Assembly: GCA_963921795.1 (NCBI GenBank)
Contig: OY997658.1
Location: 26,651,456 to 26,715,455, forward strand
Reading direction: 5' to 3'
From: Nannobrachium achirus
Taxonomy: Eukaryota; Chordata; Actinopteri; Myctophiformes; Myctophidae
DNA: 64,000 nucleotides
Shown here: piece by piece, positions 17,098-55,108 of the stretch
Numbering within the stretch: the stretch's first letter is position 1
How the letters are laid out: every line of letters starts with the position of its first letter
Notes under the pieces: model-generated
Databases searched by the model: none
What the model saw: only the letters and a program-made list of their open reading frames with translations
What the model was told of the DNA's origin: nothing
Made by a program: the position numbers and the translations under genes

Positions 17098-17172
17098 AAA
17101 AATAGCCGATCTACAAGCTCACAACGTGTCACTCTGCGTCGCATTGTAAGCTTGTAGATCGTCTATTATTGG
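17098..17172. repeat. Hairpin module copy 1
   Basis: AAAATAGCCGATCTACAAGC on the left, GCTTGTAGATCGTCTATT on the right, with a diverged loop. No surrounding MITE recognised. Confidence 0.85.
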
Positions 17173-17276
17173 TAAAGAGATTTGGTGTTTAGCTTATCAA
17201 AGAAAAGCAGTCAAAGAAATGTGGATCCGTTTTTACTGAGAATAGAGGGTTTAATAGGCTACATGTAAATTACCAT

Positions 17277-17521
17277 TGTTTTCCTGTTGAGATTGGCACA
17301 TTTCACCCAGGTTTTTTCATCTCACTCACATCACTTTGTCTGCTGACCTCACTCAGCAACGAAATAAACAGAAAAAAAATAAAAAAATAAAATAAAACAA
17401 TTCACAGGAGGCAAGCAGTGATCATCACCCCATGATGTGCACTGCAATGTAGTTTCAAATGCACTACATTGCAGGCGCTTTTTGAGAGTGAAAAAATAAG
17501 AAGACACGTGTGACATGTGTG
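17277..17521 (+). repeat. Dispersed repeat, copy A (inverted copy at 38569-38804)
   Basis: Includes TGAGATTGGCACATTTCACC and a local palindrome around TGCAATGTAGTTTCAAATGC. The copies differ by small indels. Confidence 0.75.
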
Positions 17522-17831
17522 ATCTGGGCAGCTTGGCCCAGGAAATGTGTCAAGCTCAATAGGGAACAACGGTACATCAATGATTGACAGATTCATATGG
17601 TTATTTATGACAATAAAGCACAGATGTTTCGTTTTTGTTTCGTTTTTTTGTAGCCCACATCTGTGTGTGATTATGTGTAACCAATACAAATATTGTGGAT
17701 TGTGCAATTCTTTTTTTTTATATGGTCATAAGCTATTCAGATGGGGGAAATTAGTCTGGTGATTCAACAACAATCAGGATTTTTACATTTATTGAAAGAC
17801 TTGTGCATGTGTCTGGCCATTTGTTTGGGGA

Positions 17832-18115
17832 ATCTCGCTCTTTCGAACGACCGTCATTTCGACAAAGGAGCGTCGGGAGGGTTAGCGACTCACCCCACGG
17901 AGGTTAGGGTTAGGGTAAGAGGGGAGCGTGTCGCTGTTACTACATGTCATCTTTTCGACACCCGACTCTAACCCTCACCCTAACCCTAACTTCCATGGAG
18001 TGAGTCACTAACCCTCCGGTCGAAGTGATGGTCGTTCGAAAGAGCGCGATTTTCCCGCGTTAGAGTTGGGTGTCGAACAGATGACACGTAGTAACAGCAA
18101 AACGCTCCCGTTTGT
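17832..18115. repeat. Palindromic element with telomere-like TTAGGG motifs
   Basis: Arms GCTCTTTCGAACGACCGTCA (17838 on) and its complement (ending about 18048) enclose GGTTAGGGTTAGGG on one side and CCCTAACCCTAAC on the other. A third, outer partial copy of the centre follows. A similar half occurs at 54828-54955, so the TTAGGG runs belong to a mobile repeat. Confidence 0.75.
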
Positions 18116-18635
18116 TTTGAATTATCTTCCATGCATTCTGTATTTGGAGAGCTGGGTGACTGAAAATAAACTACAAGGTAAAAACCAGCTTCACAGGACG
18201 TTCTGTGACATTGGTTATAGTGAGCATCACTGCTGGGTGAGCGTACATCAGTGCTGAGCCATGAATCCACAGCTGCAGGCTTGTCCACCCGACCTGGAAA
18301 CGGCTCTATCGCGCCGCGGTCTGCGTCGAGTACGTCATGTCAGTTTTTTTCTCTTAACATGGGAGTGAATGGGAGTTACGAGCCGACGAGCGCCCAGTGT
18401 GACGCACCCTTTAATTCTGACATCCCAATAGTCTGACAAATGTTAGGTTAGTAGTGAGAGGTTATGGTTAAGGTTATGGTGAAGCTAGTTATAATGCGCG
18501 CCTGTCAGACTAATGGCACAACACCGTGGGAATGGTGCAGGTGTGTAGCGGGGAATTGTGAGGTGTAAGGAATGTGGAAGTGGCCAGAGGGGGAGAGACA
18601 GAGACAAAGAGTTGATTGTCTTCTTAGTCTAGATT

Positions 18636-18706
18636 ATGTGTGCGTGTGCGTGTGCGTGTGCGTGTGTGTGTGTGTGTGCGCATGTGTGTGTGTGTGTGTG
18701 TGTGTA
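18636..18706. repeat. (GT)n microsatellite
   Basis: GT/GCGTGT units. Confidence 0.93.
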
Positions 18707-18961
18707 CTTGTCTCTGATCTGTCCTTGGCATGCGTGACAGACAGGTCTGCACAGCTATTGCCTGAAAACTCAATGGTGTTAAATCGATGATGAAATTCAG
18801 TATGACTGCACAATACAAGTTATTCTGAGTGTTCGCCACCTACAGTGAATAATCCTATGATGAAACACTTTCACACTCTCTTAATGGGATTGGGAGCGGT
18901 CACTCCCAGGATGACATTGACAACCTCACCCACAGGGCATGAGGAGACCCACAAGCATGAA

Positions 18962-19625
18962 TAGCCGGGGAGCCACAGGCCCAAAAGCTCAAAGAATAGG
19001 GTTTTACCTGTGACGTCATGACATACTTTTTATTTTTGTTTTTTCTATTAATTTGGTCATTAAGGTACACAGAATGAGAGGCCTGCTCTGCCGGAAACTC
19101 TGCGAAAAAAAGTTATGGCCATTTGTATATTCACTCCATCGACTTCAATATAGAGGAAAGAAACACACCAAAAGAAATATGCTTTAAGTAGCATGTGAGG
19201 GATCAAACTAGGGGTTCTTGATGATTCTGAATCCATTGCAAGCATTTGTTTTGCATGAAAAACATTCCTTGGGCTAGAAAACGGACCAAAATAACGGTGA
19301 AAAGTGATGACTCATCAATTTTCACAGGTTTGAGAGGCTGAAATCTAGCCCAAGGAATGGTTTTCATGCAAAACAAATGCTTGCAATGGATTCAGAATCA
19401 TGAAGAACCCTTAGTTTGACCCCTCACATGCTACTTTTTGTGGTGTGTTTTTTCCAGTAGGCCTATAGTGAAGTCAATGGGAAACTTTTTTTCGCAGTGT
19501 TTCTGGCAGAGCAGGCCTCTCATTCTGTGTACCTTATTGACCAAATTAATAGGAAAAATTAAAATTTGGAGTATGTCATGACATCACAGGTCTTCTCTCA
19601 TTTTGGCACATTGGCTCCCCGGCTA
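18962..19625. mobile_element. Foldback element of 0.66 kb
   Basis: Nearly perfect palindrome with ends TAGCCGGGGAGCCA and TGGCTCCCCGGCTA, arms of about 300 bp and a centre near 19300. The inner 120 bp of each arm (around TGAATCCATTGCAAGCAT and CCTTGGGCTA) is also the core of the foldback at 49446-50077, whose outer arms are unrelated. Confidence 0.85.
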
Positions 19626-20056
19626 GAAGCATTTGAATTGATATGTGCAGCATAATATACTGGGACCTCTGCAACCACCTACCCAGAAAGGTATAAATGA
19701 AAGCCTACAGCATCACCCCTTTCAAGGACTGTTTGACCTGTTGACGTTCTGGAAGAAGGCTGACTGACTATTCATAATATTATACGTCACTGTACAACTC
19801 GTTATGTTGCCAAATGTCTAACGCTTTAGCATTCGGATTCTCTGATGAGAGAGAAAGATAGATTATGTAGAGAGAGCTCTCTACAGAGGGGTGGGTGTGG
19901 CTTCTAGTTCAGGAAATGTGAGCAGATGTTGACTCTCAAGTTGAAGTTGATATCAACAGCAGTGTCCCCCTGGCCCCACCCCTCTCTAAAGAACATAATG
20001 AACAGACTGTGACACAACAACGCAATAATACTCAAAACGCTAAACCATCAATCAAC

Positions 20057-20082
20057 AAGAGAGAGAGAGTGAGTGAGAGAGA

Positions 20083-20129
<47 letters not shown>

Positions 20130-20190
20130 CATGTGCCTGCGTGCTTGTGTGCATGTGCATATGCGTGCGTGTGCGTGTGTGTGTGTGTAC
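20057..20190. repeat. (GA)n followed by (GT)n
   Basis: A GAGAGA run to about 20127, then TGCGTGTG and GT units. Confidence 0.93.
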
Positions 20191-20339
20191 AGTTGTATAT
20201 ATACACCTACATTCCTTCCTCGGTCCTCCCCTATAATAGGCTCACTCTTAAGACTGAGATTCACTCATTAGACACAGAAACTATCCTGTTGAGAGAGAGT
20301 TACCAGTCAGTAAATGAACAGAAAGACGGTGCTATTGAA

Positions 20340-20402
20340 CAGCCTGGCTGATCAACCTGCAGCACAGAGACAGACTGCTTATCTGATACAACCTCCTCTG
20401 AG
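20340..20402 (+). other. Possible 5' untranslated exon of the TRIM35-like gene
   Basis: A donor-like CTGAG/GTAAGA lies at 20398-20408. The next plausible acceptor, TTCCCCTTGTAG (ending 22322), lies 67 bp before the TRIM ATG. The pair would define an intron holding several MITEs. The left boundary is unknown; this is an inference. Confidence 0.3.
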
Positions 20403-20455
20403 GTAAGAACAGACATTTGTTATGACTAAAAAAGCTGAATGATTACTATACTACT

Positions 20456-20733
20456 CAGGGACGTGCAGAGAATGTTACAGAGGCTGGGGCTGATATTTCT
20501 AAAAGGGCCTTTTGGCGAAAATAGCCGACCTCCAAGCTCACAATGCGTTGCGTTGATACGGTACTTGATACCACCCTGAACTAACTTGAATGCTGCCTTC
20601 AGGTATGGCATGGAAAGAGGGCAGTTGCATTTCTTTCAAAATAGTAAAAACTGCATTCATGGTCTGAAGAGGGGAAAAAGGGCAGTGGCTCAAGCCCCCT
20701 TTGATGTCTATGTGTGCACGTGACTGCTACCAC
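20456..20733 (+). mobile_element. MITE of the CAGGGACGT family
   Basis: Starts CAGGGACGTGCAGAGAATGT and ends near TGATGTCTATGTGTGCACGT. Further copies are 21963-22287 and 42536-42955, both in the opposite orientation. The palindrome inside is reduced to one arm. Confidence 0.7.
20517..20556. repeat. Hairpin module copy 2 (one arm)
   Basis: AAAATAGCCGACCTCCAAGC arm only; this family has ACCTCC in place of ATCTAC. Confidence 0.75.
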
Positions 20734-20743
20734 TGCAACTATT

Positions 20744-20905
20744 CGTTGTTGTCGGGTGGAAACCTTGTATGTGAAAAGAAAAAAAAAAAAAAAAATTGTT
20801 TTGTTTTGTATTTATCTTTTATATTAAAAATGATTTAAAATAGTGAAAATAGTCGATCTACAAGCACACAACGGCTCACGGTGTGAGGCTTTGTGTGCTC
20901 AGACG
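20744..20905 (+). mobile_element. MITE fragment of the GTCGGGTGGAAACC family
   Basis: Shares TTGTCGGGTGGAAACCTTGT and the following AT-rich block with 48991-49260 and 51463-51725. Confidence 0.65.
20843..20902. repeat. Hairpin module copy 3
   Basis: Arm variant CAAGCACACAAC paired with TTTGTGTGCT. The right end is lost. Confidence 0.75.
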
Positions 20906-20921
20906 GAAATCAGATGGTACT

Positions 20922-20983
20922 AGTGAAAATAGCAGATCTACAAGCTCACAATGTGTCGCGTTGAGAGATTGGCTACTTTCACT
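20922..20983. repeat. Hairpin module copy 4
   Basis: AAAATAGCAGATCTACAAGC left arm; the right arm is degraded to ATTGGCTACTTTCAC. Confidence 0.7.
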
Positions 20984-21387
20984 ACTTCTATTTGTTTTCT
21001 AAATTATGGAATGTCTTAGATTTTATGAAATTACTTGAAATTACTTAATCATGGAAATCTTTTTGAGGTAATGTTTTTTGAAAATGTTTTGAAATAATAA
21101 TAATTAAAAATAAAGGAAGCAAAAAAAATAATAAGGGCCCCATCTGAATATGCTTGAGCATTCACCAATTAAGCTCTAATATTTCTACAATTGCAACTAA
21201 TTGCTACAAAACCTGTATTGTCATTTTGAGCATAATTAAGAAGTTGGAGGATAAAGTCTGATAATGATTCTAATCATGTTCGAATATACTTTACAAGTTA
21301 CTTCAGAACATTTTTAAAATATTTTATTTTGTAACCTTTTTGAACAAAATATATTGTCAATTTTAGATCAAGGTGCCCACTCTTCCT

Positions 21388-21390
<3 letters not shown>

Positions 21391-21457
<67 letters not shown>

Positions 21458-21475
21458 GCGTGCGTGCGTGCGTGT
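21391..21475. repeat. (GT)n(GCGT)n microsatellite
   Basis: GT units followed by CGTG tetranucleotides. Confidence 0.95.
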
Positions 21476-21651
21476 CCTGTCATACACACCATGGCAACCA
21501 TGTGACTCATAGACAACATGTTGTGATTTGAGGCCCAGACAAACATCTACATTCCAAGAAGGCTATGGTAGCTTCTTAATGACTGATCCCTCCAGGGGAA
21601 TTCAGTTGTCATAAGCACTGTGGAACACAAAGACAGATAGTTGGACAGGTA

Positions 21652-21652
<1 letters not shown>

Positions 21653-21724
<72 letters not shown>

Positions 21725-21739
21725 CGTGCGTGCGTGTGT
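21653..21739. repeat. (GT)n(GCGT)n microsatellite
   Basis: About 33 GT units and four CGTG units. Confidence 0.95.
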
Positions 21740-21962
21740 GGTGTGCAGGGGATAATAGGCTCAATGACATCATCATTATTATGACATGAGGCAACTTGTT
21801 GATTTGATTTGGCATTATGCAACAAAGCAGAGCTCCCAGATTGGTACTGTAACAAGCTGAGAACTCTCTCTCTCTTTTTCTACTAGGTACTTTTTTACTT
21901 ACTACTTGTAATACTACTACGGAAAGTACTAATAGGCCTACTGTAACTGCTGTATGAATAGT

Positions 21963-22287
21963 ACTATCACTAGCACTAAGCCCCTGCCCTTTTATCCATT
22001 TGTAAAAACTGCCCTCTCAAGACCATGAATGCAGTTTTTACTATGGTGAAAGAAATGCAAATACCCTCTTTCCATGCCATACCTGAAGGCAGCATTCAAT
22101 AGAATTGCCTTGTCTAAACTCTCCTGAACAGCATCTTATGTTGAACGAATTGCCCTCTCAGTGTCGAAGTCAACCATCGAAAATAGCCGACCTCCAAGCT
22201 TGGAGGTCTGCTATTTTCAACATTTTCACCAAAAGGCCGCTTTAGAAATTCAGCCCCTGCCTCTCTAACATTCTCTGAACGTCCCTG
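21963..22287 (-). mobile_element. MITE of the CAGGGACGT family, reverse orientation
   Basis: Ends AACATTCTCTGAACGTCCCTG at 22267-22287, the complement of the family terminus. Shares GCAAATACCCTCTTTCCATG and related blocks with the other copies. The far end is eroded. Confidence 0.7.
22176..22220. repeat. Hairpin module copy 5 (short)
   Basis: GCCGACCTCCAAGC directly abuts GCTTGGAGGTCTGC. The central part of the hairpin is deleted symmetrically. Confidence 0.85.
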
Positions 22288-23417
22288 ACTTATAATGTTA
22301 TTGTTGTTGTTTCCCCTTGTAGCATTCCTGCTGCAGTAACAGACTACGGTGAACACTCCAGATTATAGGGAGTGCGACTGGCAGACAAAATGGCTTCCCG
22401 CTTGCCTCATCAGGAAGAGGACCACCCCTGTCCCGTGTGCTGTCACATCATTAAACACTCCGTCCACAGCTACTGCAAAGACTGCCTGCAGGAATGGTGG
22501 ACGGAAAACCCCCCAAATGGATGTTCTATTTGTAAAACAAGATCGTTCCGGGACCAACCTTCTGCAAACCTGGGGTTGAAGAAACAGTGTGAGAAACTGA
22601 AATGCAGGATTGCCTCGTCGGAGAGCTCAGAGGCCCTCTGCACTGTGAACGGGGATAACTCCTTGTTCTTCTGTCTGAACAATGATCGGCCGGATTCAGA
22701 AGAAAAGGCCGGACACCCGTTCAGGCCTGTGGACGAAGCGTTGTGGCGCTGTAGTCGGGAACTCCAGGAATCACTGAAGCCTTTGAAGGAGAAACTGGAT
22801 GTGTTTGAGGACGTTAAAGTTAAGTGTGACCAGGCGGAAAATCTGATCAAAGTTCAGGCACGTGACACAGAGGCGCAGATCAAGAAACAATTCAAGAATC
22901 TTCGTCAGTTTCTGCACGACGAAGAGGAGGCCAGGATCGCCACGCTGAGGGAGGAAGAGGCACAGAAGAGTCAGCAGATGAAGGAGAGGATCGAGGGGCT
23001 GAGCAGAGACATGGCGGCGCTCTCGGACACAATCCGAGCCGCCGAGGACCAACTGAGAGCCGGCGATCACGTGTCGTTTCTGCAGAACCGTAAGGCCGCG
23101 GCGAAGAGAGTCCAGCTCACCCAGCAGGACCCACAGCCAGTCTCGGGAGGGTTGCTGATGATAGACGAGGCCAAACACCTGAGCAACCTGGCCTTCAGGG
23201 TCTGGGAAAAGATGAGGGAGATGGTCGTCGACACTCCTGTAACGCTGGACCCCAACACTGCCGAATCGGGACTCGTCCTGTCCGACGATCTGACCGGCGT
23301 GAGACGTGCAGAGTTGCAGCAGCCTTCTGAGAACCCGGAGAGGTTGGAGTTACGGCCCTCTGTCCTGGGTTCTGCAGGCTTTAACTCAGGGTCGCGCAGC
23401 TGGGATGTGGAGGTTGG

Positions 23418-23974
23418 CAGTGGTGTAAAGTAACTAAGTACAGTTACTTAAGTACTGTACTTAAGTACAATTTTGAGGTATTTGTACTTTACTTGAGTAC
23501 TTCCAATTTCCAATACTTTTACTTCTACTCCACTATACATCTCGGATCCAAATATTGTACTTTTACTCCACTACATTTATTTGAAAACTTTAGTTACTAG
23601 TTACTAGTATTGAATTATAATATTACAAAACATACATTAACCACTTTAGCCCTATTATATACCTTGGCTATTTGAAAATAGCCAATCTACAAGCTCACAA
23701 CGCGTTGCATCGCGGCGCATTGTGAGCTTGTAGATCTGCTATTTTCAAACATTTTATACTTTTACATTTGGTACGCGTTGTGAGCTTGTAGATCGGCTAT
23801 TTTCAAACATTTTGTACTTTTACTTTTGGTACTTTAAGTACATTTTGATAACAATACTTTCATACTTTTACCCAGATTTTGAATTCTGGACTTTTACTTG
23901 TAACAGAGTATTTCTACATTGCTGCATTGATACTTTTACTTTAGTATAAAATGTGAGTACTTTTTACAACACAG
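23418..23974. mobile_element. hAT MITE (CAGTGGTGTAAAG family) inside the SPRY region
   Basis: A perfect 8 bp duplication GAGGTTGG lies at 23410-23417 and 23975-23982. The ends are CAGTGGTGTAAAGTAAC and TTTTTACAACACAG. The body is rich in AAGTAC/GTACTT motifs. It carries one full hairpin module and an extra half module. Relatives are 32049-32401, 35520-36488 and a fragment near 54396. Confidence 0.93.
23672..23750. repeat. Hairpin module copy 6
   Basis: Arms GCCAATCTACAAGCTCACAA and TTGTGAGCTTGTAGATCTGC around GCATCGCGGC. A further right arm lies at 23774-23808, so the module is partly duplicated. Confidence 0.9.
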
Positions 23975-24401
23975 GAGGTTGGACACAATAGTGTCACTGG
24001 GTGTGTCAGCAGAGTCTAGCCAGGGAAAGGGAAATAAAGGGGGTAGACACTGGACGATAGCGTTCTGTGACGGTAAATACACCAGGGTCTGTCGCTGATC
24101 TCTCAGTGAACCACAAAGCCCGGAAGATCAGACTCCAGCTGGACTGGAACGGAGGAAAGTTGTCCTTCTCTGATGCAGATAATTCGACACACCTGCACAC
24201 CTTCGCACACACTTTCGCTGAGAGACTATTACCATGCATTGGTAACGGTGATGTTGGCGGTACGGGAAGCACGTTGGGAATGCGTGCCCCACCTGCAGAT
24301 GCAATATCCGTTGCAAGTTGTATGGAGATTATTATGTTTTCATCCGTCTGTGTCTAGAGGAGGAAAGACTACTGAAAAATCTTTTCCATTGATTTGTGTA
24401 C

Positions 24402-24473
24402 AAAACATAGCAGCTCTACATGCTCACAATGCCACAGAGGTGTTGTGAGCATGTAGATCTGCTATTTTCACAA
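24402..24473. repeat. Hairpin module copy 7
   Basis: ACATGCTCACAA paired with TTGTGAGCATGT, the variant typical of the CAGTGGTTCTCAACC family, followed by the same CACAATTTTGCCCTC flank. Confidence 0.85.
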
Positions 24474-24489
24474 TTTTGCCCTCTATTAT

Positions 24490-24760
24490 TTGACAATTTG
24501 GCCTATTATTGACCAGGGGTACCAAAAAGCCTGAAAAAAAAAAGAATTTACTTTACTTATTTACTGAATTGAAGCGCTCTTACTCATTGTCCAAATGAAA
24601 AGTAACACGTACAAGTATTTAATTTTTTAACTTACTCAAAAGTAAGAGTAAAAGTAGAGCATTTAAACATTACTTTAAAAGTACAGATCCTCAAAACACT
24701 ACTCTTGAGTAAATACTTAAGTACTTTTACTGTCTGATGATATTACTTGCGCCAGCAGAG
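24490..24760. repeat. AAGTAC-rich hAT MITE remnant and AT-rich sequence
   Basis: Repeated AGTAAAAGTA and CTTAAGTACTTTTAC motifs resemble the body of the 23418 family, without clear ends. Confidence 0.45.
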
Positions 24761-25263
24761 CGCACAAGTACTGCGTTGGGTGGCGTCCCTGTCGGCTGTC
24801 ATGTTTACGCCTGTAGCCAATTACGGACCAGCATTCCAGGTGATGTCACCATCAACAGCCAATGAGGGACCAGCATTCTTGGTGACGTCACCAACAACAA
24901 GTGAGACCTGATATATAAATGACAAGGCTCAAGTTGGCACCCCGGCAGAGTGCCAACTTGCCCACCCACACACATACAGACTACAGTACTTGCGCACACT
25001 GCTGGCGCACAAGTAGGCCATGCATGGCCACGAGTGCCACAAGGTGCAAGTTTGCACCTCTAGAGTGCAATTCTTGTTGTTTTATGTGTTGGTGTAGTTC
25101 TCTAGACCAGTAGGCCATAAAAGATAAATCATCAAGAGTCAAAAAGTAAAATAAATATTAAAAAATAAATCTATCTCACAAAGATGTGATGGCCCTCCTA
25201 GTAACCTTGAGGAACCCTAGGTTCTCTGATCCCTAAGATCCCTTTGAAGACCATGCTCTATTG

Positions 25264-25693
25264 CAGTGGTTCTCAACCTTTTCAGGCTGCGACCCTCAAA
25301 ATAATAATATTTTAACTGGGGACCCCCCACCCGACTAGCACTAAGAGTTGAGGCATTACATTTTGTATAACACGGTTCTATTGTGAAAATAGCCGATCTA
25401 CATGCTCACATGTAGATGTGAGCATGTAGATCTGCTACCTTCACAATTTCTGCCTCTAATATTTGACAGTTTGGCCAAGGTTTAAATTGTAATTTTAGTG
25501 GTATTAAAAAGTCCTTAGATTGTCACTTTAGAAATGTGCAGATACCCTCTGTCTATACACTTAAACTTTATGTTGATTTGTTTACTGTTGAGTGAGAAAA
25601 TGATGTTTCACATTAAGTTAATCGGCTGGGGACCCCCAAAATAATTTGGAGACCCCCCCTGGGGGATCCCGACCCACAGGTTGAGAACCAATG
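25264..25693 (+). mobile_element. hAT MITE (CAGTGGTTCTCAACC family), 8 bp TSD
   Basis: The duplication CTCTATTG lies at 25256-25263 and 25694-25701. Termini are CAGTGGTTCTCAACC and GGTTGAGAACCAATG. Other copies are 33230-33975, 37057-37330 and 42172-43015. The 33230 copy still contains part of a hAT transposase. Confidence 0.94.
25381..25447. repeat. Hairpin module copy 8
   Basis: ATTGTGAAAATAGCCGATCT on the left; CATGTAGATCTGCTACCTTC on the right. The loop is shortened to ATGTAGATGT. Confidence 0.88.
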
Positions 25694-26054
25694 CTCTATT
25701 GCACACATCCAAAAGCATTTTCTATTCTGACCATTAGGTGGTGCCACAAATGCAAAAGGTTTATGACCCACCATGACTTATCACCTTGGCCAGTGGTATT
25801 ATGTTGACATTTTATATATGATTATTACATCATATTATGGCATTATGTCATATGCCATTCATGGCTTGAATGGTGACATGTTTGATACGTTTATTATGGA
25901 TGTATCAATTTGATAACATACTTTTTATAGGGCGGCCCAGCGTCTAGTCGGCGACCTGGCCAACTCGGGAACGATGTAAATAGGGAATGAATGCCCCGCC
26001 CTTTAATGCAAACCCCATTATACATGTTGTCATAGGACCCGTTTTGACCATCTG

Positions 26055-26310
26055 TTTGCCTGTGTCCATTTATGCCCATATATGGAGATATCTGTATCTG
26101 TCTGTCTGTCGGCGTCCATTTTATGTCCATATATGGAGATCACTGCAGATATAGTTCTGGGTCCATTTTATGCCCATATATGGAGATATCTGTCTATTTG
26201 CGTCCATTTTATGCCCATATATGGAGATCTCTGTATCTGTCTGTCTGTGTCCCTTCATGCCCGTATATGGAGATATCTGTTTATCTGCGTCCATTTTATG
26301 CCCATATATG
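26055..26310 (+). repeat. Minisatellite built on TTTTATGCCCATATATGGAG
   Basis: Five units of 55-75 bp, each with a CATATATG core and a CTGTCTGTC-type tail. Isolated further units occur at 26545-26570 and 26637-26660. The core is similar to ATATGGGCATAAAAAG in the insert at 4172-5550. Confidence 0.8.
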
Positions 26311-26771
26311 AGATCTCTGTCGCTTTTTGTTTGTTTCTTCTTTAAGCAGAATACACAGCCTGCTTAAATCTGCATCATTCAAGTCATCCTCCCAGTCCCA
26401 CGCTTTGTTGCTTGTCTTATGTTTGTCTTTGTCTCTTTTATTTTCTTTTTTGGAGCAGACCCCATGAATGCCCCACCCTTTAATGCAAACCCCAATATAC
26501 CTGTTGTCATAGGACCTGTTTTGACCATCTGTTTGCCTTTGTCCCCTTATGCCCATATATGGAGATCTCTGCACACACAGTACCGGTTGCGGAAAACTCT
26601 GATGTTAGACATCAGCTCCGCATTCGGGCATTCATTTTATGCCCATATCTGGAGAACGCGCGTGCCGGTGGGAAGAACGGTTCTCGAGATACGCGGATTA
26701 CATACATACATACACATTCACAGAGATTTTTTGTTGACTCATGTGGCGTAAGTGATGTCAGAGCCTTTTAA

Positions 26772-27452
26772 CTCATTGAGTGCCAGCGCCCTCTAGGGGC
26801 CAAAGAATGCCAGCGCATCTCTCATAGGCGAGCGCTTTAGCTTCCAGGACCTAACCTTCCAGGACCTCACGTGCTCACGTTCATGCACGTCATGGAAATG
26901 TCCCGGATGATAATGCTAACAGAATGGCTATTCCCATTTTGTCATCTAAAAGATCATTTTTGGGCGATTTCGCCGTAAATAAACCTCGCGCCGCTTCCCT
27001 AAAGACACAATCCAGAGATACAAGCCTTCAAAGATGCGGTCTTTCATTGGATTAGGCGGAGATTGGCGATTTCGTTCGCAAATAACGTCCGGCCGGGACG
27101 TTGTTAGCTTTCGGCTAGTAGCTACAAAAATCAAGCCAGGCTTCAGAAGGCCTCTTATCATTTTATTCCATTTCATTAAATATCCCGATCTAGTTCGGGA
27201 TAGGCACCCTGGAATACGTCGCGCCGCTTACAATGAACATTGGGTGAACATTGGGGGGGGGTCTAAACTTTATTTTAAACCATTTTCAATGGAATAAATC
27301 GTCGGAGCATCTAGCGTAGCTCGTTGGCTAGCGCTGGGCGAGCCGGGACCACCCACGTTGCTCCAAGCAGCTCGGGGTAAGTAAAATAGCAAATAAAAAA
27401 TTGTTTTTGATCCCGAATATCCCGAACTAGGTCGGGATAGGCACTGTATGAG
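26772..27452. mobile_element. TTAA-flanked MITE (piggyBac/Kolobok type)
   Basis: TTAA lies at 26768-26771 and 27453-27456, with inverted ends CTCATTGAGTGCC and GGCACTGTATGAG. TTAA target duplications are the hallmark of piggyBac and Kolobok elements. The internal segment 26990-27385 recurs inverted at 59735-60130. No transposase is present. Confidence 0.75.
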
Positions 27453-27609
27453 TTAAGTGATGTCACAATGAGTCAGCGCTTGCGCAGATTTCCTCCGGAA
27501 CAGCCTGATGTCAACAATCAGCTCCGCATAAGGAGATTCCGAACGTTTTGCGCCGGTTCGAAAAAAACGTGCGTCGGGAAGCCGGTGGGACGAACGGTTC
27601 TCGAGATAC

Positions 27610-27624
27610 GCGGATTACATACAC

Positions 27625-27669
<45 letters not shown>
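27610..27669. repeat. (CAGA)n simple repeat
   Basis: About 13 units after the sequence GAGATACGCGGATTACATAC, which also occurs at 26685-26705 before a CATA run. Confidence 0.92.
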
Positions 27670-28327
27670 GATTTGTCGCATTTATAGATAGATACTAGTG
27701 CATGTCATTCATTGTTCACGTTTGAATTATATTGGTATTATGGTTGGTGACATGTTTGATATTATTATTATTGATAACATGCTTTTATATTGTGGTGTTT
27801 GTCATATATCATTCATATGTACAGTCTCATGGTGATTAGGTTTCATGTGATTATTATTCATATTAATAACATGCTTTTACTTTGTATTGTACATCAATCA
27901 GTTTCTAATAATGTCGGTTATTATGTCTTGAAATGAAATCAGTGGATATATTGATAATTATGAGATTAATATCTCAGCCAGGCTGAAGACTGACTCGTGT
28001 GTGCGTGTGAGAGTGCATGGTGTGCGTGTGCACACATTTGTGCACGCGTGCAACTAATCTCACAAACCACGTGACCAGTCAGTGCCAAATTACTGTTGTC
28101 GGTAGGCCAAGGAAGCAACATATTTCTGTGTATTTCTTTTGTTATTTTCATTTTTTTTTGTGAATTCATAATCATCATAACAATCCTATATGGGACATAG
28201 ACTGGCACCCTTCTTTTTGGGGGTTTTAGGGTTAGGTGTTTAGGTGCAACATACTGCATAAAATAACACACACTCACACAATAATAAAACTGCATAATAT
28301 TAACGGTATGACTTGTATGAGCTAGAC

Positions 28328-28700
28328 CAGGGGTCTTCAACAGGTTGTCCGGGACCCCTAAGGGGTCCTCAGAGTTACTACAGGGGGTCCTCCAAATCTT
28401 TTTGTGATATTTTGTGAAATTAATTTTTTCCATCCTTTTCTTTTTATTAACCACTTGAACCCAAGTGTCCATATTCAGAGAACTTTAGACAAAAATAGCC
28501 GATTGTGAAAGGTGATTAAGAGAGAAAGGTCAAGTTTATTGACGGTTAAATATCTGAAAACACAGACATGAATCCAAAATACACTGACGATTGTGTTGTC
28601 AAACAATGAAACTATATGGAATCTGAAAAGGTTGCGGGGGTCCCTGCTTCATCTCTCTCGCAACTAAGGGGTCCTTGGCCTGAAAACGTTGAAGACCCCT
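28328..28700 (+). mobile_element. hAT MITE (CAGGGGTCTTCAAC family)
   Basis: Duplication AGCTAGAC (28320-28327) and AGCCAGAC (28701-28708), 7 of 8 matching. Termini are CAGGGGTCTTCAACAGG and AACGTTGAAGACCCCT. The hairpin module is almost deleted here (AAAAATAGCCGATT at 28492-28505 only). Other copies: 30766-31075, 34987-35429, 52948-53366, 53686-54119. Confidence 0.88.
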
Positions 28701-30765: not shown

Positions 30766-31075
30766 AATCAATATCATATTCGGAGAACTTTAGACAAAAA
30801 TAGCAGATCTACCAGCTCACAACGCCTCGCGCTGCGAGGCGTTGTGAGCTTGTGGATCTGCTATTTTCGGCAAAGAGGTTTGGTGTAGAGGGGAAAAAAG
30901 AGCAGACTAAGTACAGAGTGAAAGGTCAAGTTTATTAAGTATTGACTGTTCGAGTGGTTACATCTGATGATGGTGCTGTCAAAATGATATGGTATCTATG
31001 TAGTTGTGGGGGTCCCTGCTTCATCTCTCTCTCTCGACTAACGGGTCCTTGGCCTGAAAACGTTGAAGACCCCTG
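30766..31075 (+). mobile_element. 5'-truncated hAT MITE (CAGGGGTCTTCAAC family)
   Basis: Internal sequence from TATTCGGAGAACTTTAGAC to the right terminus GTTGAAGACCCCTG. It ends 26 bp before the start codon of the retinol dehydrogenase, so it supplies the immediate upstream sequence of exon 1. Confidence 0.8.
30795..30870. repeat. Hairpin module copy 10
   Basis: Near-perfect 33 bp arms meeting at GCCTCGCGCTGCGAGGC. The only arm differences are CTACCAGC against GCTTGTGG. Confidence 0.92.
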
Positions 31076-31101
31076 TTATACAGAAAGGAGAGGGACATGC
31101 T

Positions 31102-47971
<16,870 letters not shown>

Positions 47972-48700
47972 CCCGGTCAGCTTCTATGCTCCCTGCATTC
48001 ACTCTGGCCCTGTCTGCTGTTTTTTTTTTTAATGTTTATTTTTTTTTCACACACATAACACAATACATACACTCACACCCATTCACTCACCCCCACACAC
48101 ACAGCCTACCCCCTGCACATGCCCATTAAGAGTCACCTTGTTTACAAAATGAAATACCAAAAAATTCAATAAAAAAAAAAACAATTCAGATGACATTGTT
48201 CACATCATTTTCTTTTTCCCCCATTTCTTTTCCTTTTCTCTTTAATCATACATCACCCTTGTGAATATGCACACTATTTTCAGGTATTTGTCTCCACAGC
48301 ACCCATATACACCTCCCAAAGCTGTTCTGAAAAAAGGTGTTGAGCTAAAAATCAGCAATCCATCTCCCAGTGGGCTAGTACAGTACATTGAAAAAGAGAC
48401 AGACACCCTTGCTCTCAGCCGATACTGATGATAATCCACTCCAACCGACTGACTTACTTACCTTAAGTGTAATCTCTCAAGACAGACTCTGATAGCTTAA
48501 GGAAGAGGGACAGACAGCATAGGCGCTATTTGCGTCAATTGCATGTATGCAAACGGGTGGGGAGTAGCGCTCGATATGGCTTCAACCCCCCGCGGCGTGG
48601 ACAAAACTTGGTGCCTCGGACAGACAGAGAGGGTTGTTCCCTTTTCTTTGCAATGGTGTGTCAGGAGAAGAAGTACAGACTATTGGAGGCAGGGCAGGTT
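47972..48700. other. Region downstream of the retinol dehydrogenase, no gene seen
   Basis: T-rich and CA-rich sequence. AATAAA-like signals occur near 48168 (CAATAAAAAA), which could serve for polyadenylation of the upstream gene. Confidence 0.4.
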
Positions 48701-48711
48701 CAAATACAATG

Positions 48712-48760
48712 AGCCTCATTCACAAAACTGTATTATATAAGCATGTTTTGTGAATGAGGC
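48712..48760. repeat. Short perfect palindrome GCCTCATTCACAAAAC
   Basis: 16 bp arms (48712-48727 and 48745-48760) around an AT-rich 17 bp loop. Confidence 0.9.
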
Positions 48761-48990
48761 CCAATGACTTGTATTAGCTAGCCACTATCACCCTGGCATC
48801 TCGATGTTGGGGCCCCTTCCTAAATGATCAAACATTATGAAGCTACATGATGCCATGTCCACAGCCTTGTGCTCAAGGTCACATGACTTGATGTTACAAA
48901 GACAAGTTTGTCTTTATGCACGCACAGACAGTCACCATGGCAGATATACCGGTACCTACGGTAAATATGTGTAAAGGAATGCCTGCCATG

Positions 48991-49260
48991 CATATCGTCG
49001 TTGTCGGGTGGAAACCTTGTATCTCCAAGTTTCAAATGTGTACGTTCTTTCGCAAAGTAAAGCCCTGCTTCATCGTACAAGGCCGTCGCGCAAAAGTAGT
49101 GAAAACAGCCGGTCTACAAGCACACAACGCCTCGCTGTGCGAGGCGTTGTGTGCTTGTAGATCGGCTGTTTTCACTAGTTTAAATCATTTTTTTTAAATG
49201 GCAAATGCAAAACGAACGTTTTTGGACATACAAAGACATACGACGATATACGACGATATG
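48991..49260. mobile_element. MITE of the GTCGGGTGGAAACC family
   Basis: Perfect 11 bp ends CATATCGTCGT and ACGACGATATG, with hairpin module copy 27 in the middle. Related to 51463-51725 and 20744-20905. Confidence 0.8.
49098..49177. repeat. Hairpin module copy 27
   Basis: AGTGAAAACAGCC and GGCTGTTTTCACT outer arms, then CTACAAGCACACAACGCCTC and its exact complement. Stem about 36 bp. Confidence 0.96.
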
Positions 49261-49445
49261 AATGAATGCCTGTACTCTCGCTCATACACATACATGTGCC
49301 ATGTCCATTACTGTGTGTTAACAGTGACTGTGCCCCGGCGCAGTGCTCCAGGGACGCTTCAGACGACGTCTTGTCCCAGAAACTGTGGGAGATCAGCTGC
49401 AACATGTTGGGCATCAAATGGGACTAAACCCTGAAAAGCATTTTG

Positions 49446-50077
49446 ATCTCCATGGGCCATACGAGATGTCGGTATCGGAAAGGTGGCAAAGGTTACCATG
49501 CATTTTTGAAAAGCTCTATATCTGTATACTATATTTTTGTATGATAACCCTTTCTGAGACACAGCTAAAATGGTGTTATCAGCCGCTAGAGTTGGTGTCC
49601 CATTAACTTTACTATAAAAAAAAGCAAAAAAGATCATCTGCTTTAAGTAGCATTTGAGGGGTCGAACTATAGGGTTTTTCATGATACTGAATCCATTGCA
49701 AGCATCTGTTTTGCACGAAAAACCTTCCTTGGGCTAAAAACGGCCCCACAAGACACTTTTCACACTTTTGTGGAGGCCGTTTTAGCCCAAGGAATGTTTT
49801 TCATGCAAAACAAATGCTTGCAATGGATTCTGAATCATGAAAAACCCCTAGTTTGACCCCTCATATGCTACTTAAAGCAGATTAATGTTTTGATTTTTTT
49901 TTTTACTGTATAGTAAAGTTAATGGGAGACCAAATCTAGCGGCTGATAACACCAATTTAGCTGTGTCTCAGAAAGGGTTATCATACCAAAATATAATCTA
50001 CAGATATAGAGCTTTTCAAAAATGCATGGTAACCTTTGCCACCTTTCGGATACCGACATCTCGTATGGCCCATGGAC
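49446..50077. mobile_element. Foldback element of 0.63 kb
   Basis: Arms CCATGGGCCATACGAGATGT and its complement continue for about 280 bp each, meeting near 49755. The inner third matches the core of 18962-19625; the outer two thirds do not. Confidence 0.87.
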
Positions 50078-50085
50078 TAACAAGC

Positions 50086-50115
50086 TCACAATGTGTCGAT
50101 GCAGATTGGCTATTT
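50086..50115. repeat. Hairpin module remnant
   Basis: CAAGCTCACAATGTGTCGAT followed by GCAGATTGGC, just outside the foldback. Confidence 0.55.
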
Positions 50116-50420
50116 GAAGTATTTTAAAAATGTTTTTCAAAATAGTAAAAAAGGCAAAGAGGTTTAGGGATAAAGGGGTAAGGTATGGACGTTATTAAAC
50201 GTTATTAAAATGCTCTGCTCGTGCTTATGTAATGCATCAGTCCTGCACAGATTGAGAATGGACGTATCCAGGGTTTGATATTTGAGCTTGTCTTTACTAA
50301 ACCACGTATTCTGAGCAGATCAATATGCATATTATGCTATGTTTAAACAGCACTGTGCAGCACTTTTGTAAAGACAATGTCATCACTTTTGAAAGGTATA
50401 CTATATAAACGATGATCTAA

Positions 50421-50968
50421 AGCCCCTTTTCGACTGCAGCATTAGCACCACTCCACACCACACTACACCACACCACACCGCACCACATACAAATATCTAC
50501 ATTTTCCATTACACAAAAGTACCCCTATCTGTAAGAAACAAATTGACCCCTTTAACTGTGATTATAATACAATATAAATTTGTATTACAACTATCCTAAA
50601 TTATAATACACTATAATAGATTATAACTGTGATTATAATACACTATAAAGTATTAATGTATTACTATGATAATTATAATACACTATAATAGATTATAATA
50701 GTGGTTATAACACAATACAATCTATTGTCATGTATTATTACAACTATATCCTGGTGGTCTAAATGAAAAGTCAGTGAGTGATCAGCCATTATGAAGTGTT
50801 TGGCCCTGTTTGGCCTCGCTCAGACCTACTCTAGATTGGATACTTTTTAGTACCACGTTTAGTACCACTTTCACATCACTCTACCCAGGTCCTTGTAGTG
50901 GAAAACCCTGGCACAAGTGGGCGGTGTGGTGTGGAGTGGTGTGGTGGTGGGCTTGTGGAAAAGGGGCT
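50421..50968. mobile_element. MITE with AGCCCCTTTTC ends
   Basis: Ends AGCCCCTTTTCGACTGCAG and GTGGAAAAGGGGCT, with CACCACACC-type repeats inside near the left end and GGTGTGG-type repeats near the right. A related copy around 56810-57480 is broken by another element. Flanking TAA on both sides would fit Harbinger, but this is uncertain. Confidence 0.65.
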
Positions 50969-51462
50969 AAGTGTGTGGGGAGTGTGCCATGTGCTTGACT
51001 GCCTTGTAGGTCATCAGCAGTGTTTCCAGTTAAGTAGATAAGTAGAATATTTAGCACATTAATCTATGCCACAAACACAGAGACCTGGGAAATAGTTAGA
51101 AACGTGTTTCCCATAGCATTTTATAACTTCCAGACATCCTGCTAAAAGGTGTTAAGAAACCGGTGGCCTGTACCTAAATCGAATTCATCTTTATTGTTCT
51201 TGATATCGATGGCCAAAATGCAAAACCTCCCATCTGCAAATTTCATGATTTTCGACTTTTACTTGAAATGATGACAACAGGCTATGCTGCACAAGATCGT
51301 TCTGCCCAGGGACGTGCTGGTCCCCTGATTCAGCCCGGGAAAAAGACTTGGAGAGGCCCTCATTGCGCGCTATAGAGAGAGATTTCTCTCTCTATAGCGT
51401 TGCTGCTACTCAAAGATTTGAGACAAAGTAACAAGCCAGTGGGCCAATTACATGAGTTATAT

Positions 51463-51725
51463 TTCGTCGTTGTCGGGTGGAAACCTTGTATGTCCAAAAC
51501 CGTTTGTTTTGTATTTATCATTTTAAAAATGATTTAAACTAGTGAAAACAGCCGATCTACAAGCACACAACGCCTCGCACCGCGAGGCGTTGTGTGCTTG
51601 TAGATCTGCTGTTTTCACTACTTTTGTGGCAACGGCATATAAGGCAACGGCCTTATATGATGACAGGGCTTTGCTTTACATTTGAAACTTGGAGATACAA
51701 GGTTTCTGCACGAAAGTGACGATTT
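51463..51725. mobile_element. MITE of the GTCGGGTGGAAACC family, nested
   Basis: TCGTCGTTGTCGGGTGGAAA to GATACAAGGTTTCTGCACG; orientation opposite to 48991-49260. Confidence 0.78.
51540..51620. repeat. Hairpin module copy 28
   Basis: TAGTGAAAACAGCCGATCTA and TAGATCTGCTGTTTTCACTA; inner CAAGCACACAACGCCTCGC and complement are perfect. One mismatch, C against T, next to GATC. Confidence 0.96.
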
Positions 51726-52262
51726 ACTTTGTTGGCCGCCCAGCCCCCAAAATGGAACGAAGGCCGACATTTTATTTAAAACTTTTTCCTAATGGCCGGC
51801 CTGGACCGGCCGGGAATGAACCGCCCGTTCGGGAGTTGTCCCGCTTTTCCCAATGGCCAGCACGTCCCTGGTTCTGCCCCTCATTTTGTGAAAGAAATTC
51901 ATGTGAATAGAACCCCTTTCATGTTGTATGCATGTTGTCGACTACAACATGCAGATAGGAGGTTTTTACCTAGAAATAGTTAGGCTATTTTCTTTGTTGA
52001 ATAACACTTTTAGCACTTAATTGTGCTCCTTTTGAGAACAAGACTATCTACATTCTACAGGTCTGTTACAAGTATTAGAATTACCATCAATATTCTCACC
52101 GTCTTGGTGTGGGAAAGGTTTCACCACCTGACACCAATCATTAGCAATCAACAAGGAAATGCACATAGGAGGTTTTGGTGTTGAACACACATTTTTCTTT
52201 TTCATTTTCCCAACAAAGTTAATTTTTCAGATAGGAGGTTTTGCATTTTGGCCATCGATATT

Positions 52263-52947
52263 TGGTTTATAATAATTTCAGAGGATTATTCCGCAAAGCC
52301 ACTTTAAAGCGGGCGGGAAGTATAGCCATTTCAGTGTATTCTTGTTGTTGCTTTTTTAAGGTGTGTAAGTTAGCTCTGGGTTGGCATGGTATACACAGTA
52401 CGTACTCATACACAATAAGGATGTCAAAAATCATACTATGGCATCTTCTATTATTGCAACGCATGTCATGTGATATAAAATAAACATGTTATTTTGCCAA
52501 ACATAATGTTTTGTTTCGCCTGTTGTTTTTCTTAAAACCCCTGTGCAACTTTTGTGCACACTGCATGATTACACAGAATTATAGCCTACTACAGGCTGGT
52601 AGCTAGACCCATCATCATACATGCAGGATATCAGCCTACACGTGACTGACTTACATGTGATGTGGAATTTTCCCTGGGGGTTACAGGGACTTAGTTTTGG
52701 CTTATTAATAATGCGAGACTTGAATGGCTACATAATGGGGGGTATAAGCCAACAACAGCCAACCTCCTGACAAGGCTTTACTGGGACTTGTTCCAGTCCA
52801 CCCAGTCCACCCAAACAAAGGAATGATGGATGTACAAGGCTGAAACTGTTCATTTTTACAGGCCCATTATGGTCATACACATTTAGTGACCACTCTATAT
52901 TGCTGCACATCTATACCAAATCGGGTGAACATGGACACGTGGTACAT
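52263..52947. other. Intergenic stretch, no gene seen
   Basis: AT-rich single-copy-looking sequence without recognised repeats or convincing frames. Confidence 0.45.
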
Positions 52948-53366
52948 CAGTTCTTCAACGTTTTCAGGCCAAGGACCCCTTCGTTGAGAGAGAGAGATGA
53001 AGCAGGGACCCCTGCAACCCTGTCATAGATTCCATATCGTTTCATTGTTTGAAAGCACAATTTTGGATTCATGTCAATTTGTGTTTTCAGATATTTAACC
53101 ACTTGAACTGTCGATATTTCTCCCCTCTACACCAAACTTCTTTGCCGAAAATAGCTGATCTACAAGCTCACAATGCCTCGCAGCACGAGGCGTTGTGAGC
53201 TTGCATAGATCTACTATTTTTGGCTAAAGTTCTCAGAATCTGATTAAGAATTTGGCTAAAAAGGAGATTTAATTGTTTTATTTCTAGAACACAAAGATTT
53301 GGAGGACCCCCTGTAGTAACTCTGAGGACCCCCTAGGGGTCCCGGACCCCCTGTTGAAGACCCTTG
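52948..53366 (-). mobile_element. hAT MITE (CAGGGGTCTTCAAC family)
   Basis: Duplication TGGTACAT (52940-52947) and TGGTACAC (53367-53374), 7 of 8. Ends CAGTTCTTCAACGTTTTCAG and CCCTGTTGAAGACCCTTG. Confidence 0.9.
53144..53223. repeat. Hairpin module copy 29
   Basis: GAAAATAGCTGATCTACAAG and CATAGATCTACTATTTTTGG, inner GCCTCGCAGCACGAGGC. Two inserted bases in the right arm. Confidence 0.9.
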
Positions 53367-53685
53367 TGGTACACTGATAAACCAGGCCCAAATGCTCTGA
53401 GTTCAAGTATTCATTTTGTATTGGGGAAACAAAAATAATGTTTTACTTTTACTTTTAGTTTTTACTTCTTCTTCTTCATTTTCATTAGGAAACCCAAGAC
53501 ATCCGTATTAGGTCATTTGAAAAGTGTTTGTCCCATGGGAGAAGCTTTTAGTCGTTAGATGACATTGAAAAGGTACCATGTGCAATGTGTACAAGTCTTC
53601 ACCATGCTTCCTTCGCAGTGGATGGCAGGATGGACAGGACCAGATGGAACACATCAAGGGACAGGTCTTTGTGTGGAGTCTAGAC

Positions 53686-54119
53686 CAGGGGTGTTCAACA
53701 GGAGGTCCGGGACCCCTAGTGGGTCCTCAGAGTTACTACAGGGGGGCCGCCAAATATTTGTGATGGGATCATTCTTTTGAATTAACAACTTGAACCCTCG
53801 CATCCCTATTCTGAGGAGAACTTTAGCCAAAAATAGCATATCTACAAGCTCTCAACGCCTCGCAGCGCTTGTAGAGCTTGGAGATCGGCTATTTTCGGCG
53901 TGGAGGTAAAACAAGAGCAGACCAAGTACAGAGTGAAAGGTCAAATTGACTAAAAACACATCCAACATAGACTGATGACAGTGCTGTCAAACAAGTCTAT
54001 ACTCTATCTATGAAATCGATGAAAATCTGCATCACACATTTATACAATATGTAGAGGGGGTCCTTGCTTCATCTCTCTCTCAGCTAAGGGGTCCTTGGCC
54101 TGAAAACGTTGAAGACCCT
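53686..54119 (+). mobile_element. hAT MITE (CAGGGGTCTTCAAC family)
   Basis: CAGGGGTGTTCAACAGGAGG to AACGTTGAAGACCCT. Flanks GTCTAGAC and GTCTAACA only partly agree. Confidence 0.83.
53826..53898. repeat. Hairpin module copy 30
   Basis: AGCCAAAAATAGCATATCTA and GAGATCGGCTATTTTCGGC; inner arms diverged. Confidence 0.8.
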
Positions 54120-54539
54120 GTCTAACATAAAAAGAAAAAGTGTGTTTTGCTGCACACACAGCCTCCGAATGGCCTTTTGCCATTCAGAGGTTCATTCCAG
54201 TCCAGAAACCAATTGGAGCACAATGCGTTCTTTTGACGCAGACACTGGCAAGACACACTGTGGTGCCTTCCAAGAAGCAGTGAGTGAACGACAGCTGCCA
54301 TGTCCTCATGGGGCCACTGGGTACTCTTATGGTCAGTGATACAGATTTCTTCTCACTAAATAAACAAATACATACACTAATAATACTATATGCAGTGGTG
54401 TAAAGTAACTAAGTAACATACTATCTACAAACTATAGCAGGCATACTGGGGAGACCAAGAAATCTGAAAAAAGTAGAAAAAGGTTACATTCATGGTGTAG
54501 CCCCTTTAAGACTCATCTTGACTCTGATCATTTTGAAAG

Positions 54540-54785
54540 GGTGGGATGGCTCAGGGTAGTTGACAGAGTACAGCATCTTGCAATGGGCCTGGTGTACAAG
54601 GTACACTACACCTGTCAAACTACTTCCAAAACGTCAAAGATGTCCACAATCACAACACCAGAGGCAGCTCCACTAATCACGTCCAACCCAGATTTGGCTC
54701 AAACAAAGGTTTAAATTCGTTCTCCCAATATGCCACAAAAATGTGGAATGCCCTACCGCCTTACAGGACTATAAAGAGGGGTGTT
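54540..54785 (+). pseudogene. CR1/L2-like LINE, C-terminal fragment
   Basis: In one frame VKDVHNHNTRGSSTNHVQP continues to QYATKMWNALPPYRTIKR, which matches the NTR...WNALP end of CR1/L2-type reverse transcriptase proteins. The preceding part (HLAMGLVYKVHYT) is in another frame, so it is broken. It would follow the part found at 14405-14690. Confidence 0.7.
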
Positions 54786-55108
54786 GCACCAAATCATGGG
54801 CCCTGGTTATTTAACTATTAAAAAATGGGAGCGTGTCGCTGTTACCACATGTCATCTTTTGGACACCCGACTCTAACCCTCACCCTAACCCTAACCCCCA
54901 TGGAGTGAGTCGCTAACCCTCTGGTCGAAATGATGGTCGTTCGAAAGAGCACGATTTCCCCTTGAAAAATAGCAGATCTACAAGCTCACAGCGCAGCACT
55001 TGCATATCTGCTATTTTTCAATAGCTAAATTATAAAATGGTTAAGGCCCCTCCACCTTGGGCCCTGGTAACTCAGTCCCCCCCCCCCCCCCCCCTTGTGA
55101 CGCCCCTG
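54776..55108. mobile_element. hAT MITE (CAGGGGCGTCAC family), with telomere-motif insert
   Basis: GAGGGGTGTTGCACCAAATC to TTGTGACGCCCCTG. Flanks ACTATAAA and AGTATAAT match at 6 of 8. Half of the 17832-18115 repeat (CCCTCACCCTAACCCTAAC) is inserted at 54828-54955, next to the hairpin module. Confidence 0.75.
54963..55021. repeat. Hairpin module copy 31
   Basis: AAAAATAGCAGATCTACAAG and CATATCTGCTATTTTTCAA; part of the right arm lost. Confidence 0.82.

Follow-up and report, generated by a model that had tools for sequence, protein, structure and literature searches.

A homologous hairpin recurs inside several MITE families of the myctophid fish Nannobrachium achirus

A 64,000-nucleotide stretch of the Nannobrachium achirus genome (assembly GCA_963921795.1, contig OY997658.1, positions 26,651,456 to 26,715,455; hereafter the window) carries many copies of one near-perfect palindrome of 75 letters, which sits inside miniature inverted-repeat transposable elements (MITEs) of several families. 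The explanation that we favour, with a probability of roughly 0.7, is that this hairpin is an internal module common to several non-autonomous DNA transposons, most of them MITEs of hAT type, and is carried by its hosts. The fuller version, in which the module also moved between families and its pairing is kept because the hairpin benefits its carrier, is put forward tentatively and stands somewhat short of even odds. It has long been asked why some few MITE families expand explosively and most others do not; among the elements sampled here, many of the most repeated ones have one defined, testable and visibly unstable part in common.

Results

A search of the window with the 36-nt arm TGAAAATAGCCGATCTACAAGCTCACAACGCGTTGC returned 52 matches (local score of at least 34) spanning 17099-54994, whereas two first-order Markov shuffles returned none at score 34 and none at score 30, ruling out chance palindromes. 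With a profile hidden Markov model (HMM) at E <=10, 58 arms were identified in the window (51 at E <0.01), which assemble into 35 units, 23 of them two-armed. Across the genome (1,658,514,493 bases, 564 contigs), the degenerate 29-base arm pattern AAAATAGCNGATCTACAWGCTCRCARYGC gave 113,399 exact matches (57,057 and 56,342 on the two strands), while the same pattern read backwards gave 0 on each strand. An earlier note on this DNA had counted more than 30 copies of the palindrome in 38 kb; the count is confirmed and proves larger, and the hairpin is not confined to this region, being present in family copies across the genome. The arm pattern had 0 and 0 matches in a viral contig collection and another genome contig collection.

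Abundance was also measured in a random sample of 20 stretches of 5 kb each, where 12,045 of 100,000 bases are N, leaving 87,955 readable. In these readable bases the profile HMM found 67 arms, which form 42 units, 25 of them with both arms; the hairpin accounts for about 2.2% of the bases (1,974 of 87,955). Scaled from 42 units per 87,955 bases, the genome holds roughly 0.7-0.8 million hairpin units, or about 0.5-1 million with Poisson error. In a depth count of repeated segments in window and sample, to which the hairpin itself contributes depth, 68 of 115 segments contain an arm or have one at most 300 bp away.

The hairpin is homologous across its host families. A complete copy consists of a 34-nt arm, a 3-nt loop and a second 34-nt arm (34-3-34), with a few extra family-specific paired bases; all family sequences are 34-3-34 palindromes with one common core, and their inner boundaries are alike (RAAAATAGC...GCTATTTTY). 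On this core each family has variants that are mostly altered on both arms: AAAACAGC and GCACAC in C, ACATGC in A, GACCTCC in F, CAGCGCGGCAC in E, and a G-C as first pair in H. When 40 arms from the pattern list were followed by eye, the second arm extended to GATCNGC or beyond in 25, 7 had lost the centre while keeping both outer arms, and 8 lacked much of the second arm. By flank spacing alone, 45 host sites in window and sample fall into 36 full, 8 partial and 1 lost, a rough classification that includes self-matching references and scores as full at least one copy (E in L046; L-numbers label genome stretches) whose letters show a centre deletion.

Some copies depart from this plan in other ways. 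At L035:598-743 a piece of the arm has been multiplied in tandem, the unit being 25 bp long (AGCTTGTAGATCTGCTG plus TGACTTAC), and in the 181-bp stretch L184 a family E arm continues into a second, different hairpin, perhaps as a recombination product. The left flanks of A (TTCTATTGTGAAAATAG), B (GGCTATTTGAAAATAG) and E (GCTATTGAAAAATAG) have an extra CTATT beside the arm, an inverted copy of the arm base.

The hosts are the hAT-type MITE families designated A, B, D, E, F and H, together with family C and with G, a relative of D. They are about 240-735 bp long, and in the copies seen each family has one hairpin site, except for E, which has two within a long inverted repeat. Terminal inverted repeats of hAT type read CAGKG... 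or TAGGG..., and short repeats of this type are present in the host families other than C and G; for G no ends were found. The ends are CAGTGGTTCTCAACC in A, CAGTGGTGTAAAG in B, CAGGGGTCTTCAAC in D, CAGGGGCGTCAC in E, CAGGGACGTGCAG in F and TAGGGCTGTCAC...GTGACAGCCCTA in H, while C (TATCGTCGTTGTCGGGTGG) is a separate element with terminal inverted repeats, of unsettled superfamily, whose ends read TATCGTCG and are not of hAT type. Target site duplications of 8 bp were found for A, B, D (L045, L050), E (32454-33188), H and a composite element with CAGGGACGTGCTGG ends that encloses a C element (51307-51870); an 8-bp duplication was not resolved for F, nor for C as a separate element. Of the ends that had been taken to mark separate families, two, CAGGGACGT (51307/51862) and GTCGGGTGGAAACC (51472), belong to this one composite, in which a GTCGGG element lies inside CAGGGACGTGCTGG with the target site duplication GTTCTGCC. 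Family H was first met outside the window, in L039, and is young, its copies matching the query at up to 98%.

Pairwise comparison of the hosts with the hairpin masked revealed three similarities: the first 25 bp of A and D (84%, E 0.004), 38 bp beside the hairpin in D and G (79%, E 0.001), and 45 bp within E that resemble the A end (80%, E 1e-4). The remaining host pairs compared had no similarity better than E 0.05, although F and the C composite were seen by eye to share the start CAGGGACGTGC. The assertion that the hosts share little besides the hairpin thus stands for most flanks and fails for these four relations.

To which family each side of a hairpin belongs was decided via reference flanks, as flank clustering had merged families through neighbouring hairpins. 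Among 109 non-redundant two-armed units, a sample biased to near-consensus arms because many loci were found by arm pattern, both flanks belonged to the same family in the expected order in 65, one flank was assigned in 26, none in 13, and 5 were discordant. The 8-bp duplications of the host families and the same-family flanks of these 65 units point to host-borne spread. Four of the five discordant units turned out to be same-family cases. The fifth, L172, is an inter-family chimera in which family D flanks the hairpin on one side and family H on the opposite side, the sole such case among the 70 units with both flanks assigned; its H match begins about 22 nt from the hairpin, whose last bases are lost. 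The suggestion of repeated capture is supported by a homologous hairpin in mostly unrelated flanks, at one site per family apart from E in the copies seen, and by this chimera.

Not every hAT element in the region has the module. A scan of window and sample for hAT ends with 8-bp duplications gave 12 candidates, 8 with hairpin arms and 4 without; two of the armless four are overlapping predictions within 55934-58327, a region free of arms in the window search. The hAT family represented at 14879-15337 (CAGGGGCGTCAATT, target site duplication GGTCAACA) lacks the hairpin in its window copy and has 3,962 first-look candidates in the genome, which leads us to reject the idea that all abundant hAT families carry it. 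This family has an unrelated palindrome of its own, about 80 bp long at element positions 356-437, and hAT MITEs of this genome may more generally contain palindromes. As to an autonomous partner, 150 of 1,653 candidate PF05699 matches were scored. Among five PF05699 loci with long open frames, arms were present in two, and the scan found neither element ends nor a partner with matching ends.

How the stem has changed differs between families and single copies. For the pairing test, the family sequences were one chosen copy each for A and F, two copies for D and four for B. Over the eight family sequences, 18 of the 34 stem positions are invariant, 12 changed on both partners and 4 vary otherwise. 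With four asymmetric positions left out, 11 of 14 variable positions between families are double changes, versus 4 double and 44 other changes within single copies (29 copies of B, C, E and G; Fisher P 8e-7, with positions and copies that are not independent events). Pairing is thus kept in active lineages and not in single copies, hinting that active elements need the hairpin. Such kept pairing between families would be explained by selection for the hairpin in active elements, or by its restoration through template switching at rare founder events. A C/A mismatch at arm position 9 occurs in five of the eight family sequences (A, B, D, F and H) and in 5 of 7 family C copies; it argues that the whole two-armed unit was inherited and not rebuilt from one arm each time.

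The genome was searched for host copies without the hairpin, using queries from which it had been deleted (families A, B, C, E, F and H); this kind of query is biased towards clean empty sites. We aligned 78 such copies (A 20, B 12, C 10, E 10, F 12, H 14); for B, 8 of 20 stretches were left out as having part or all of the hairpin, and for H, 6 of 20. The earlier note had proposed to look for a precise insertion point in such copies. Of the 78, 67 retain at least 5 nt aligned to the hairpin, some of which may be aligned by chance, 8 have lost a flank or keep fewer than 5 nt, and exact removal fits 3 (one each in E, F and H). When junctions were read by eye, the remnant in 16 of these copies (A 3, B 6, E 7) consisted of direct-repeat bases and nothing else, so that 51 of the 67 are clear cases; read in this way, the repeat class also takes in one more B and two more E copies. 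The direct repeats involved are CTATT, GGCTATTT and GCTATT. Distinct breakpoint pairs numbered 16 of 20 in A, 8 of 12 in B, 10 of 10 in C, 5 of 10 in E, 12 of 12 in F and 14 of 14 in H.

Hairpin deletions therefore occur in all six families examined, and the loss is of palindrome type. The remnants in 67 of the 78 copies indicate that most hairpin-less copies are later deletions, ruling them out as plain empty sites (with possible exceptions considered below, L121 and L116 among them), and that the hairpin is ancestral in its families. On balance, each of the six families descends from an ancestor that had the hairpin, which is a deletion hotspot.

Along the window (all coordinates on the plus strand), hairpins were placed by arm match, apart from the centre-deleted one at 22179-22219 in a family F copy ending at 22287. 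The first lies in family G at 17099-17167, with further G copies in L002-L008. A family F copy with its CAGGGACGTGCAG end at 20456 has a single arm (20517-20551), and a rearranged family C copy (GTCGGGTGGAAACC at 20751) has two (20844-20959). Family B is represented by a MITE at 23418-23974 (CAGTGGTGTAAAG ends, GAGGTTGG on either side) with a complete hairpin at 23673-23746 and an extra arm at 23773-23805 from a partial duplication, and by a second copy (end at 35520) with its hairpin at 36237-36312. A TRIM-like reading frame (Pfam TRIM_CC and PRY, 22390-23415), lying at 22390-23417 and about 23980-24240, runs up against the first of these; with GAGGTTGG on both sides of the MITE, this looks like a TRIM-like gene copy broken by the B insertion. 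Family A contributes the MITE at 25264-25693 (CAGTGGTTCTCAACC ends, CTCTATTG on either side) with a hairpin at 25384-25443, a reverse fragment with one at 37243-37301, and a copy starting at 42172 with one at 42282-42344. Nested in the last is a family F copy (42536-42955, hairpin 42824-42897, z -15.1).

Family D hairpins lie at 30797-30868 (-57.9 kcal/mol, z -13.5; CAGGGGTCTTCAAC end as reverse complement at 31062), in shortened form at 35139-35186 in the copy 34986-35435, at 53147-53220, and at 53830-53896 in the copy 53680-54118. In family E, the element at 32454-33188, found by the hAT-end scan (CAGGGGCGTCAC ends, target site duplication ATTAGGAA), has a left hairpin at 32561-32621 and a right one at 33036-33106, the copy 45109-45640 has them at 45197-45256 and 45497-45567 (z -15.4 for the latter), and a fragment ending near 55106 has a shortened one at 54966-55020. 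Family C hairpins are found in a reverse copy (49100-49174) and in the C element of the composite 51307-51870 (51543-51617, z -16.4). The GGGTCAGTGACG insert named as a further host does have a hairpin inside it, at 40402-40466, but the adjoining sequence resembles family F by eye; this element (39401-41812) has GGGTCAGTGACG-type inverted ends and many TGTCACACCATATGAT-like motifs. Two longer palindromic elements, at 19186-19436 and 49672-49847 (arms of 125 and 80 nt), are alike and do not resemble the hairpin, and TCATAATGTAATAA repeats occur in both orientations at 55100-55540 and 58810-58899.

Discussion

We propose that the hairpin was in each host family before that family spread and was then copied by the cut-and-paste cycles of its host. 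Between families, it may have passed with both arms intact when hairpins or nested elements of the same genome recombined or underwent template switching with one another. Given that only one inter-family chimera was seen, we mostly infer this route of transfer, as we do the lateral capture and the benefit to the host element. Pairing would be kept in the lineage of active copies since the hairpin, as extruded DNA or as RNA, aids its carrier, and dead copies would drift and lose it via palindrome-type deletions.

Several observations weigh against this proposal and are set out here beside the explanations that compete with it. The rarity of the chimera is one of them. Others concern the benefit, the hairpin being possibly a passive passenger that was captured a few times and does nothing for its carrier, with its pairing maintained by template switching during replication, in which one arm is copied from the other, and its copy number reflecting the hosts alone. 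According to PMC8794818, perfect stems can be created and repaired by template switching, and pairing can thus be restored without selection. The family sequences of A, F, D and B in the pairing test rest on few copies, and the C and E copies used for it had not been placed in host orientation. The shortened copies with both outer arms around a lost centre (7 of 40 by eye) are as DNA-level processing of hairpins predicts, and the hAT family at 14879-15337 is abundant without the module in its window copy. By contrast, 44 of 48 single-copy changes are not compensatory, which means that repair after insertion is not common, and the position-9 mismatch has persisted in five of eight family sequences. 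We regard a passive passenger as rather unlikely.

The remaining difficulties concern the hairpin-less copies and the hairpin borders, and some would suit an independent mobile palindrome. On this reading the hairpin is or was a tiny MADE1-like MITE that founded new families by inserting into older MITEs, with TA as a possible target. TA directly borders GTG...CAC, left and right alike, in 4 of 5 C copies and 5 of 6 H copies, hosts whose flanks are unrelated, and the inner boundaries are similar between families. Two hairpin-less copies read by eye as empty sites would and may be real ones: L121 (family H), with the sequence AAAAATATC, has just one TA, and in L116 (family C) AAACTACCTTTG precedes a short duplication. 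An 8-bp direct repeat borders the hairpin in family B, and 13 of the 109 two-armed units are flanked by sequence outside the reference families. Breakpoints are shared in A, B and E, most of them explained by direct-repeat slippage, but those in B and E would look alike if a hairpin-less subfamily had propagated or if they were the true pre-insertion state, and in A the pairs L079/L092 and L081/L087 share a breakpoint away from the direct repeat.

However, TA is self-complementary, so that a TA flank may be either stem or target duplication and is indistinguishable from a stem two pairs longer. It was not seen in the hairpin listings of B, D, E and F, and the TT and AA that flank the hairpin in 10 of 10 family A copies form an inverted and not a direct repeat. 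Most of the 78 hairpin-less copies are deletions. No solitary hairpin was found among the units examined, short of a full genome scan and with the 13 units of unassigned flanks among them, and the one singleton followed genome-wide (L039:1549) sits in family H. The earlier idea that the hairpin is itself mobile is accordingly not supported for the present, self-insertion in the past being possible; as an account of the whole pattern, we consider an independent palindrome unlikely.

A role in RNA, with a microRNA-like or RNA-surveillance hairpin selected in the transcript, would be compatible with the other readings. Six copies, when folded as RNA, had energies between -43 and -66 kcal/mol and z values between -10 and -17, and MADE1 hairpins gave rise to the human mir-548 family, as PMC1784062 describes. 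Against this, Rfam returned only sub-threshold models for the one copy tested, the best being mir-3145 at 42.9 bits against a gathering score of 98, and we think such a role improbable. Descent of all hosts from one hairpin-bearing ancestor, only the ends having diverged, could account for the flank common to D and G, the 25 bp of terminus common to A and D and the A-like stretch in E, but is highly improbable and in its pure form rejected by the masked flank comparison, given that the other host pairs show no such similarity, the hairpin lies at differing relative positions and C is without hAT ends.

If the host-carried module does serve its carriers, a broader picture suggests itself, possible but doubtful at present, in which transposons of this lineage exchange parts and a structure-conserved hairpin is a portable aid to MITE propagation, repeatedly recruited and decaying once selection stops. 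Cruciform extrusion, for example, might ease replication-timed excision or gap repair. Among DNA transposons, such an aid would correspond to the central conserved domains that short interspersed nuclear elements (SINEs) have. The claim that the hairpin helps any MITE that carries it is favoured by the founder-level pairing, while the hAT family at 14879-15337 speaks against its necessity, though that family has another palindrome. Either outcome would be of use: if the hairpin aids propagation, it is a part that can be added or removed in a standard excision assay, and if it brings no benefit, the genome provides a large body of natural data on how unstable palindromes are and on how transposon families recombine with one another.

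Relation to known systems

The hairpin is not described in the titles and abstract openings of the open-licence literature searched, and the systems closest to it share some of its aspects. MADE1, the source of mir-548, is likewise a short near-perfect palindrome (37-bp arms with a 6-bp spacer) but is a free-standing mariner derivative, whereas the fish hairpin is found inside or beside other elements or with flanks that cannot be assigned (PMC1784062). In MER6, a MITE with the highly conserved domain of V-type SINEs, a conserved module also rides in a DNA transposon; that case involves one MITE pair and a SINE-derived module, while the fish hairpin is a palindrome with at least 7 hosts (PMC6887750). 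Template-switch hairpins arise at the DNA level, by a process that forms perfect stems and repairs them, described there for RNA genes and not for a module of transposon families (PMC8794818). A known teleost hAT MITE family has internal inverted repeats and ectopic recombination, but long tandem-repeat terminal inverted repeats and two subfamilies of one family, and the account available mentions no module common to several families.

The nearest precedent is in Acropora corals, where the CMITEs, MITE families with different terminal inverted repeats, have a common conserved internal region of about 75 bp, of origin unknown to its authors, who suggest a role for it in transposition (PMC2872659). 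The earlier view that no described family fits has to be modified accordingly, as a precedent for a shared internal stretch exists. Like the CMITEs, the hairpin hosts differ in their ends and have an internal stretch in common. By contrast, CMITEs are piggyBac-like, target TTAA and measure about 100 bp in all, whereas the hairpin hosts are mostly hAT elements of about 240-735 bp with 8-bp duplications, and the words hairpin and stem occur 0 times in the main text of the CMITE paper, while the fish module is a 34-bp stem (PMC2872659). The hairpin thus works like the internal region of CMITEs but, with its other target sites, other superfamily and long stem, is no member of them.

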